DNA from: Symbiobacterium thermophilum IAM 14863
GTDB taxonomy: Bacteria; Bacillota; Sulfobacillia; Symbiobacteriales; Symbiobacteriaceae
Assembly: GCF_000009905.1 (NCBI RefSeq)
Contig: NC_006177.1
Span: 1,550,001 to 1,614,000 of the forward strand
Length of the DNA stretch: 64,000 nt
Direction: 5' to 3'
In this document: positions 30,061 to 33,344 of the stretch, piece by piece
Layout: each line of letters begins with the position of its first letter
Numbering within the stretch: position 1 is the first letter of the stretch
Position numbers and translations under genes: made by a program
Notes under the pieces: model-generated
The model's database searches: none
What the model saw: the letters and a program-made list of their open reading frames with translations, nothing else
Told to the model about the DNA's origin: nothing

Positions 30061-30954
30061 GTGGCAACGACGAGCAGCGGGCAGAAGGGGCTGAAGCCCC
30101 ACCACATCGATATGGGCGAGCGGGGCATCTACCACACCGACAACCGGCTGAATGACCTGACCGGCAAGGAGTGGGTCTTCGCCACCCGGTCGGTCATCAA
30201 CAAGAGCTACCCGCCTTCCTTCCAGTTTGCGCTGCGCAGCCGGCACGGCGGCCAGAAGCCGCCGGAACTGTGCGCGGACCTGATCCGCACGTTCACCAAG
30301 TCCGGCGAGCGCGTGCTCGACCCGTTCATGGGGGTGGGCGGCACGCTCATTGGCGCGACCATCTCCGGCCGGCGGGCGGTGGGGGTGGAGATCAACCCCC
30401 GCTGGATCGCGATCTACCGGGAGGTCTGCAGCCTCGAGGGGCTGCCGGAGCAGGAGGCCGTCTGCGGCGACAGCCGCACGGTGCTGGCCGGGTTTGAGCC
30501 GGAGTCTTTCGACCTGGTCCTGACGGACGTGCCCTACTGGAACATGGACCGGCGCCGCAGGTCGAAGGGGAAGTTCAAACGGGCCGACGGGCCCGCGGTG
30601 GAGCCGCGCCGCTCCAAGCTGTCGCCCTTTGCGCCGGATGAGACCGAGACCGACGTCACCGGCATGCAGGGCAAGGAGGAGTGGCTGGATACCATGCGGG
30701 CCGTGTTCGCGGCGGCCCTGCGGCTCCTGCGTCCCCGGCGGTACATGGCGGTCTTCATCGGGGACATGTACCACTCCGGCCGCTACCACATGCTGTCCGC
30801 GGAGCTGGCAGGACTCCTGGAGTCGCTGGGGCTGGTGCTGAAGGCCAACCTGATCTGGTACGACGTCTCCAAGAAGCTGCACGTGTACGGCTACCGGTAC
30901 GAGTTCATCCCTTCGATGGTCCATCAGAACATCCTGGTGTTGCGCAAGGAATGA
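30061..30954 (+). CDS. DNA methyltransferase (N4/N6, beta-type order)
   Basis: A 297-residue amino-methyltransferase. The SAM-binding motif is DPFMGVGGT (about residues 84-92) with GVEINPRW after it. The catalytic motif reads TDVPYWN (about 155-161), a DPPY-type tetrapeptide as DVPY. A variable, basic loop (RRRRSKGKFKRADGP) after the catalytic motif could serve target recognition. Motif IV and motif I are both in the same half, and the C-terminal part carries DMYHSGRYHML. The GTG at 30061 is placed by the open frame and GGGGGG upstream. A second methyltransferase follows 18 bases later. No restriction endonuclease gene is recognisable on either side. Confidence 0.85.
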   Translation: MATTSSGQKGLKPHHIDMGERGIYHTDNRLNDLTGKEWVFATRSVINKSYPPSFQFALRSRHGGQKPPELCADLIRTFTKSGERVLDPFMGVGGTLIGATISGRRAVGVEINPRWIAIYREVCSLEGLPEQEAVCGDSRTVLAGFEPESFDLVLTDVPYWNMDRRRRSKGKFKRADGPAVEPRRSKLSPFAPDETETDVTGMQGKEEWLDTMRAVFAAALRLLRPRRYMAVFIGDMYHSGRYHMLSAELAGLLESLGLVLKANLIWYDVSKKLHVYGYRYEFIPSMVHQNILVLRKE

Positions 30955-30972
30955 CGGAAGAGGAGGGGCCCG

Positions 30973-32016
30973 GTGAAGCCGCTCTGGGTGCAGAACCGGA
31001 AGTACATCGGCAGCAAGCACAACCTGCTGCCGTTCATCGAGCAGGTGGTGGCGGAGCGGGCCCCTGAGGCCCGCTCCCTCGCCGACCCGTTCACCGGCTC
31101 CGCGGTGGTCGCGTACCATTTCGCCGCCCGGGGCCTGACCGTCGCCGCAGCCGACAACCTCTACCACAACTACATCGCCGCCCGGTGCTTCCTGGGCGGC
31201 CGCCCGGGCGAGGTGCGCTGGGACCGGGTGGCCGAGCTGATCGCCCATCTGAACCGGCTGCCACCGGAGCAGGGCTACTGCTGGCGGGAGTACGGCGGCA
31301 CCTACTTCACGCCGGAGAACGCCGGCCGTATCGACGCCGTCCGGGAACAGATCGCCCGCTGGCGGCAGGAGCGGATCATCGGGGAGCAGGAGGAGGCGGT
31401 GCTGCTCACGAGTCTGATCTACGCTGCCGACAAGGTCGCCAACACCTGCGGCCAGTACGACGCCTTCCTGAAGCACCTGGGCGCGAAGCCCTATGCCGAG
31501 GACGGCACCCACCTGGTTGACGCGACGGTCTACAAGCCGCTGGAGCTGGGCCTGCCGCAGGTGGTGGAGTCGGAGGCCAACCGGGTTTACTGCGGCGATG
31601 CCGATCACCTGATCGACCGGATGGAGGCGGACGTGCTCTACCTGGATCCGCCGTACAACAGCCGGCAGTACATTGACAACTACCACGTGCTGGAGAACAT
31701 CGCCCGATGGGAGAAGCCCCGCCTGTACGGCAAGACCCGCAAGTTTGCCCGGGACGGTCTGAAGTCCGCCTATTCCCGGCGGTCGACGGCCGGGGCACAT
31801 CTCACCCGGCTGATCCAGCGGGCGCGGGCGCGGCACATCCTGCTCTCTTATAACAATGAAGGAATCATCCCGGACGAGGTGATCCGGGCCGCACTGGAGC
31901 AGCGGGGCCCGGTGGAGCTGTTCGAGCGGCGCTACGCCATCTTCGGCAACGGCGCGGGGCGCTCGGGCCGACGGCCGATCGTGGAGCGGCTGTTCTACTG
32001 CAGAGTGGTGCGATAA
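30973..32016 (+). CDS. D12-class N6-adenine DNA methyltransferase
   Basis: A 347-residue Dam-like enzyme. The N-terminus KYIGSKHNLLPFI is the D12 motif X region; DPFTGSAVVAYHF (about residues 38-50) is motif I; YLDPPYNSRQY (about 223-233) is the catalytic motif IV. The insert between them (about 70-200) is the target recognition part. The GTG start has GAGGAGGGG upstream. It is co-transcribed with the preceding methyltransferase. The pair could mark two sites or two strands of one asymmetric site, as in type IIS systems, but no endonuclease partner is visible, so an orphan or phage-derived regulatory pair is equally possible. Confidence 0.9.
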   Translation: MKPLWVQNRKYIGSKHNLLPFIEQVVAERAPEARSLADPFTGSAVVAYHFAARGLTVAAADNLYHNYIAARCFLGGRPGEVRWDRVAELIAHLNRLPPEQGYCWREYGGTYFTPENAGRIDAVREQIARWRQERIIGEQEEAVLLTSLIYAADKVANTCGQYDAFLKHLGAKPYAEDGTHLVDATVYKPLELGLPQVVESEANRVYCGDADHLIDRMEADVLYLDPPYNSRQYIDNYHVLENIARWEKPRLYGKTRKFARDGLKSAYSRRSTAGAHLTRLIQRARARHILLSYNNEGIIPDEVIRAALEQRGPVELFERRYAIFGNGAGRSGRRPIVERLFYCRVVR

Positions 32017-32052
32017 TACAACTTTAGAAGGATCATGGAGTTGCATGTGGAA

Positions 32053-32087
32053 TTCCTCCTTCATTCCGACCCAGGATGAAGGAGGAA
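32053..32087 (+). promoter_or_regulatory. Hairpin sequestering the ribosome binding site
   Basis: TTCCTCCTTCAT (32053-32064) is perfectly complementary to ATGAAGGAGGAA (32076-32087) across 11 bases. The right arm contains the only good ribosome binding site (AAGGAGG) of the next gene, whose ATG is at 32091. As RNA this hides the site, so translation should depend on opening the hairpin. Confidence 0.7.
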
Positions 32088-32090
32088 GTC

Positions 32091-33344
32091 ATGTCCAGGA
32101 GATGGATGACCGCCGTCGCGACGGCCCTGCTGGTGATCAGCAGTGCGGCGCCTGCCGCCGCAGCAGCCGCTGAGCCGGCTCCCGTCGTGGATTCGGCCCC
32201 CCAGCCAGACTCACAGCAGACTCCCTCGTCTCCCGCTGACGCCACCGGGCCGGAGGCGCCGGCCGACGCACCGGCGCTGCCCGATGAGGCGGCCGATGAC
32301 GACGCCGACCCGGAAGCCGGCGCAGCGCCCGGATCCGTGACGGATCCCGATCCTGAGGCCGAACCTGAGACCGAGCCTGAGACCGAGCCTGAGACCGAGC
32401 CTGAGACCGAGCCTGAGACCGAGCCTGACACGGAACCCGCCCTCTTCGCGGACCTTCCGCAGGATCACTGGGCCTACCCGGAGGTGGAGCGCCTGGTCGC
32501 GGCCGGCGTGATCCACGGCGACCCGGCGGGCCGCTTCCGGCCCGACGCCCCCATTTCCCGGGCGGAGTTCCTGAAGATGCTGCTCACGGCGCGCCGGCTG
32601 GATCCGGCCGGGAAGTGCGCCGGCCTGTTTGCCGACGCCCAGTGCTGGACCTGGTACGCCCCTTACGTGGAACTGGCCTACCGGCTGGCCATCGTGGAAC
32701 CCAAGACCGATATGCTGGATGACGAACCCGATTACTTCGACCCCGAGGGGGCCATCACCCGGCAGGAAGTGGTGACCGCCCTCATCCGCGCGACAGGGAA
32801 GCGCTGGACCGCGCAGACCATGCACTGGCGTGAGGCCAGCGAGATCCTCGGCCGCTACGCCGACGGCGCGGACGTCACGGAACCGTACCGCAAGCCCATG
32901 GCCCTCGCCCTCACCGAGGGGCTGGTGCGCGGCTTCGGCGACGGGACGCTGCGCCCGTGGCACCAGGTGACCCGCGCCGAGGCGGCGGCCCTGGTGGGCC
33001 GGGTGCTGCTGGACGCCCCTGACCTGCCGACGGTGAGCCTGGACGGCCATGAGGTGGTCTACGTCGACGCGCTCGACATGCGCACCACCATGTACACCAC
33101 CGGCGAGGCCGGCGTGGGGACGCGGACCGCCACGGGCGTCACCGTGCGGCCGGGCGCGGTCGCGGTGGACCCGGCCGTCATCCCGCTGGGAACGCTGCTC
33201 TTCGTCGAGGGGTACGGCTACGCGGTGGCCGTGGACACCGGCGGGGCGGTGAAGGGCAACGCCATCGACCTGTTCGACTGGGTCTCCCACCGGGAGGCGC
33301 TCCTCTTCGGCATCCAGACCCGCCGGGTCTGGGTCCTGCCCTGA
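32091..33344 (+). CDS. Secreted SLH and 3D-domain cell wall protein
   Basis: A 417-residue exported protein. It has a signal peptide (WMTAVATALLVISSAAPAAA), an acidic Pro/Glu/Thr linker with repeated PETE units (about residues 85-115) and S-layer homology repeats. The first SLH repeat (FADLPQDHWAYPEVERLVAA) starts near 117 and others are less regular. The C-terminal 3D domain is about residues 320-410 (AVDPAVIPLGTLLFVEGYGY and AVDTGGAVKGNAIDLF, with the three Asp). 3D domains occur in muralytic proteins of the MltA/Rpf/YuiC type. The likely role is wall-bound peptidoglycan remodelling, possibly in sporulation or germination. The ATG at 32091 is chosen because the upstream ATG at 32076 lies before the ribosome binding site. 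Confidence 0.88.
   Translation: MSRRWMTAVATALLVISSAAPAAAAAAEPAPVVDSAPQPDSQQTPSSPADATGPEAPADAPALPDEAADDDADPEAGAAPGSVTDPDPEAEPETEPETEPETEPETEPETEPDTEPALFADLPQDHWAYPEVERLVAAGVIHGDPAGRFRPDAPISRAEFLKMLLTARRLDPAGKCAGLFADAQCWTWYAPYVELAYRLAIVEPKTDMLDDEPDYFDPEGAITRQEVVTALIRATGKRWTAQTMHWREASEILGRYADGADVTEPYRKPMALALTEGLVRGFGDGTLRPWHQVTRAEAAALVGRVLLDAPDLPTVSLDGHEVVYVDALDMRTTMYTTGEAGVGTRTATGVTVRPGAVAVDPAVIPLGTLLFVEGYGYAVAVDTGGAVKGNAIDLFDWVSHREALLFGIQTRRVWVLP
32361..32432 (+). repeat. In-gene 12-bp repeats coding PETE
   Basis: About six tandem copies of a 12-base unit (GAGCCTGAGACC with small changes) encode the Pro-Glu-Thr-Glu linker. Such direct repeats can change copy number by slippage, which would alter linker length without a frameshift. 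Confidence 0.85.

Follow-up and report, generated by a model that had tools for sequence, protein, structure and literature searches.

Genes and features of the locus

The window analysed here, a stretch of 64,000 nt from the Symbiobacterium thermophilum IAM 14863 genome (NC_006177.1, positions 1,550,001 to 1,614,000), carries on its forward strand an SLH/3D gene preceded by a leader with a predicted fold. ATG 32091 is the likely start of the encoded wall protein. The leader comprises the 74 bases between the stop codon of the upstream methyltransferase gene and this start; its elements are listed in Table 1.

Table 1 Features of the SLH/3D leader and its flanking genes, in window coordinates.
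Feature	Position	Strand	Description
D12-class DNA adenine methyltransferase gene	30973..32016	+	5' neighbour of the SLH/3D gene
Extended -10-like element TGCGATAAT	32009..32017	+	Overlaps the methyltransferase stop codon; recognized by eye; candidate promoter
P1 small hairpin CAACUUUAGA-AGGA-UC-A-UGGAGUUG	32019..32043	+	GAAGGA/GGA in the loop region
Possible 14-codon upstream ORF MELHVEFLLHSDPG	32035..32079	+	Traverses the P2 left arm
P2 left arm	32053..32067	+	12 nt of the original prediction, then a bulged T, then CC
P2 loop GACCCA	32068..32073	+	Differs between species
P2 right arm GGATGAAGGAGGAA	32074..32087	+	Shine-Dalgarno sequence AAGGAGG at 32079-32085; invariant in three genomes
SLH/3D gene	32091..33344	+	Secreted protein of 417 aa with a signal peptide, an acidic linker, three SLH repeats and a 3D domain at the C-terminus

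Directly 5' of the leader, an N6_N4_Mtase gene and the D12-class gene lie side by side (30061-32016, +). At loci L004 and L005, which belong to two other genera of the family, the end of a D12-type gene still adjoins the SLH/3D gene. Within the SLH/3D gene, a run of 12-bp repeats of the GAGCCTGAGACC type (32347-32435) encodes an E-P-E-T linker between the signal peptide and the SLH repeats, whose length and sequence differ among the three Symbiobacterium species. Elsewhere in the window, two genes for alpha/beta-type small acid-soluble spore proteins (PF00269; 28321-28557 and 28599-28856, both +) are adjoined by a germination protease gene (PF03418; 28904-29902, -).

A predicted 14-bp stem contains the Shine-Dalgarno sequence

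The original prediction described a perfect 12-bp hairpin masking the start site of the wall protein. Its two arms, TTCCTCCTTCAT (32053-32064) and ATGAAGGAGGAA (32076-32087), are indeed exact reverse complements with 11 nt between them. As also claimed, the right arm contains the whole Shine-Dalgarno sequence (SD), located 5 nt upstream of ATG 32091, and ends three bases (GTC) before this codon. Folding and comparison show, however, that the 12 exact pairs are only part of the stem, hereafter P2: past a bulged T (about 32065) it continues with two C-G pairs (CC/GG), which brings it to 14 pairs closed by a 6-nt loop. RNAfold closes P2 further outside by a GUGG/UCAU pairing. Masking applies to the SD, which is hidden in the predicted fold both here and in two sister genomes of the genus, G001 and G002; the start codon itself lies outside the stem proper. 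G002 lacks the bulged T, so that its P2 is a perfect 14-bp stem, and in G001 two positions of this stem are C·A mismatches.

P2 was considered as a terminator of the methyltransferase gene and rejected: no U run follows the stem on its 3' side, and no terminator is listed on the forward strand. Read on the opposite strand, the palindrome also supplies an SD with an ATG (32046, -), which opens a 679-aa antisense frame. This start is lost in G001, so the frame is probably a by-product of the palindrome and was discarded as a real gene.

Hairpins of 12 bp are not rare in the window as such, since it contains seven distinct perfect inverted repeats of at least 12 bp with loops of 3-30 nt (32 overlapping 12-mers); dinucleotide shuffles (n=40) yield on average 0.55 matching 12-mers, with a maximum of 3. 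The background for rarity at starts was provided by genome-wide pattern searches together with the window. Only two sites in the 3.57 Mb genome match the pattern CCTCCTT-N3..33-AAGGAGG. The arrangement CCTCC...GGAGG-N5-ATG is found at 13 sites, and when contiguous pairs are counted inward from CCTCC/GGAGG, the SLH/3D site has 10 and the other 12 only 5 or 6. P2 is thus without a comparable SD stem at any other start of the genome. A second copy of the leader was not found in the S. thermophilum genome, and a mobile or repeated element was rejected on this ground. In the sister genome G001, a hairpin-like CCTCCCTGGTACCGGGGAGGGAGG lies over a GGAGG and ATG at another possible start (L066, G001:C6:78811-78842).

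Predicted masking across the growth range

The SLH/3D SD is among the two most masked of the 36 SD-bearing starts of the window, whose median is 43% unpaired; the other is the opposite-strand mirror of the P2 palindrome. Three further starts of the window, 16440 (-), 10727 (-) and 21415 (+), are gene-like and also have an SD predicted to be strongly paired at 60 °C.

In fold predictions for the window leader, the unpaired share of the SD rises from about 0.3% at 60 °C to about 1% at 80 °C, which makes temperature an unlikely signal. The unpaired fraction at 60 °C is 0.003, 0.002 and 0.155 in the three genomes, with P2 folding in all of them. A hairpin containing the SD in a thermophilic host had suggested an RNA thermometer, opened by heat. 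This idea fares poorly: predicted SD pairing hardly alters between 30 and 80 °C and stays at about 99% in two genomes, so that the growth range would be crossed without opening. We consider a thermometer highly improbable.

Conservation of the leader

Three genomes of the genus, that of the window and those of G001 and G002, were compared. The leader differs at 3 of 73 aligned sites from G002 and at 12 of 73 from G001, whereas the four-fold sites of the two neighbour genes differ at 26-36% and 36-55%, respectively. With the methyltransferase gene, the more conservative reference, the differences correspond to P of about 1e-6 and 2e-4. The leader has fewer changes than the four-fold sites of both neighbours and is thus under selection; judging from the alignments, we take it with good confidence to be constrained.

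The most conserved part is not P2 but the block ahead of it, 32012-32043, which consists of the -10-like box, P1 and an SD-like GAAGGA. P1 shows two changes in 25 positions against G002 and one against G001, and the P2 loop one and five in 6. The expected conservation of both P2 arms holds in part. The right arm is unchanged (0/14), as befits the SD that it constitutes; the left arm is identical in G002 (0/14), but carries two changes in G001 (2/14), both of which weaken P2 by breaking a pair each. Taken alone, the left arm is mildly conserved, with P of 0.07 or 0.002 depending on the choice of reference gene, and when neutral drift is simulated at 36-55% divergence, 3-16% of the runs retain masking that is equally strong. 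Neither P1 nor P2 has a two-sided compensatory change among these just three sequences. The alignment suggests that the P2 stem as such is probably constrained.

These patterns bear on another use of the stem, a constitutive damping in which P2 just lowers expression of a secreted protein and nothing is regulated. The strong predicted masking of the SD, the lack of a proven input and the tolerance of the left arm to weakening in G001 all fit it. Damping, however, needs no upstream block, and yet that block is what is best conserved; moreover, a weaker SD would be a simpler route to the same effect. We regard it as unlikely.

The upstream block

The GATAAT of the -10-like box is invariant in the three genomes. 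A promoter scan gave no match at TGCGATAAT, and a clear -35 was not found. As a promoter, judged by its position, the box would place the transcription start near 32023-32026, upstream of P2; the mRNA would then lack part of the 5' arm of P1. It is also possible that transcription enters the leader by read-through from the D12 methyltransferase gene, in which case the mRNA would include both P1 and P2.

P1 is predicted to be weak at 60 °C and mostly open at that temperature in two of the three genomes. Its substitutions lie in the bulge or preserve pairing, none of them two-sided, and the AGGA of its loop is invariant.

Such a block could act as DNA, that is, as a promoter and operator, with the P2 palindrome being a DNA-binding site or an accident. 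The GATAAT extended -10 and the unbroken conservation of 32012-32043 are compatible with this, as is the predicted weakness of P1 as RNA at 60 °C. Against it, one arm of the palindrome is the SD itself, the changes in G002 and G001 break the DNA symmetry, and an A to G change in P1 gives a G·U pair in RNA while disrupting the repeat in DNA. A DNA element seems to us quite unlikely.

Candidate openers of P2

If the lock reading is true, heat does not open P2 and a specific opener must therefore exist. By analogy with a known system, a CsrA-type protein is possible: the GGA in the P1 loop is invariant, and csrA (PF02599) is encoded in all three genomes of the genus, with fliW adjoining. The link to CsrA consists of one motif and a precedent, since a GGA in or near an SD is expected anyway.

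A leading ribosome is another candidate. The original prediction had it start at ATG 32076, which is in frame with the SLH/3D gene. Initiation there is implausible, because this ATG sits in the closed stem, within the right arm of P2, and lacks a separate SD. ATG 32035 is a better candidate. A ribosome starting at this ATG, or at the corresponding GTG, might cross the left arm and free the SD, in an iraD-like or attenuation-like coupling. An SD-like AAGGA precedes the start, which is kept as ATG/GTG/ATG in the three genomes (GTG in G002); in each of them the frame crosses the left arm without meeting a stop codon. Yet the AAGGA ends just 2 nt before the start codon, which is a poor spacing, and the substitutions in the frame have no coding bias. 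In addition, the frame is not kept between species: a 1-nt indel displaces its stop codon, which, counted from the SLH/3D start, lies at -14, +5 and +173. With these features the coupling looks improbable.

Distribution

Searched with a covariance model built on the leader (R1), the 154 genomes of the class gave hits of 104-109 bits in the three members of the genus and none approaching these scores in the others. The best match outside the genus (G072, L085; E 0.003) falls inside a 495-aa reading frame and was set aside as chance. Two other genera of the family have adjacent methyltransferase and SLH/3D genes; the intergenic stretch is longer and different there, and does not contain the leader element. 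No Rfam family matches the leaders above its gathering score. Searches for further species returned only G002 again and distant SLH proteins among genome contigs, and no match among viral contigs. Among the class genomes examined, the SLH/3D leader is, by its sequence, genus-specific.

Discussion

An isolated hairpin over an SD is ordinary, and as modelled here the leader is an instance of SD sequestration, a well-known kind of translational control. The place to seek the input is the upstream block, and not the stem that was noticed first.

We lean slightly towards a cis-regulatory leader of the genus, in which P2 hides the SD, the upstream block is the input and a factor acting there opens the stem. 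By default the 14 pairs of P2 would keep translation of the wall protein off or low. The block 32012-32043, with its -10-like box, P1 and GAAGGA, would form the input side, and a factor acting on it would keep the P2 left arm unpaired. This factor would most likely be either a CsrA-type protein that binds GGA or a ribosome translating the 32035 frame; a small RNA is also possible. Sequence, uniqueness, conservation and predicted fold are what we observe; that the stem folds in vivo, represses and is opened by something we infer.

A further, doubtful step is a two-part switch specific to the genus: the P1/GAAGGA block would sense a protein, a ligand or a small RNA and unlock the unusually stable SD stem, so that a physiological signal would govern synthesis of the wall protein. 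If the cis-regulatory reading is true, an RNA lock holds back translation of a wall protein in a thermophile, and the leader would offer a simple example on which to test translational control in a Firmicute lineage that branches deeply and has received little study.

Comparison with known systems

ROSE and fourU thermometers share with the leader an SD within a hairpin; the stem here is perfect, too stable, and predicted not to melt in the growth range. Translation-attenuation leaders such as that of B. subtilis tlrB/yxjB (PMC6851288) resemble it in placing an SD-sequestering hairpin behind a leader frame, whereas the SLH/3D leader has no arrest motif and no terminator, precedes a gene unrelated to resistance, and does not conserve its leader peptide.

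A riboswitch candidate named the SLH motif lies 5' of SLH-domain genes (PMC6429828); compared by description only, it resembles our case as a structured leader before an SLH-domain gene.

Two E. coli systems come closer to the proposed input. Control of iraD by CsrA proceeds through a short upstream ORF (PMC5574718). The iraD/ORF27 coupling and the present leader both combine a short upstream frame, an SD-like possible CsrA site and a downstream SD-sequestering structure; the SLH/3D leader differs in that the upstream SD is badly spaced and the stop codon at the gene start is not conserved. For ymdA, it is established that CsrA opens an SD-sequestering hairpin (PMC7492729). The common points are an SD wholly in a hairpin near the start, an upstream GGA and a csrA gene in the genome. 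In the SLH/3D leader, CsrA binding is only conjectured, the stem is longer and more stable, and the host is a thermophilic Firmicute with fliW beside csrA.
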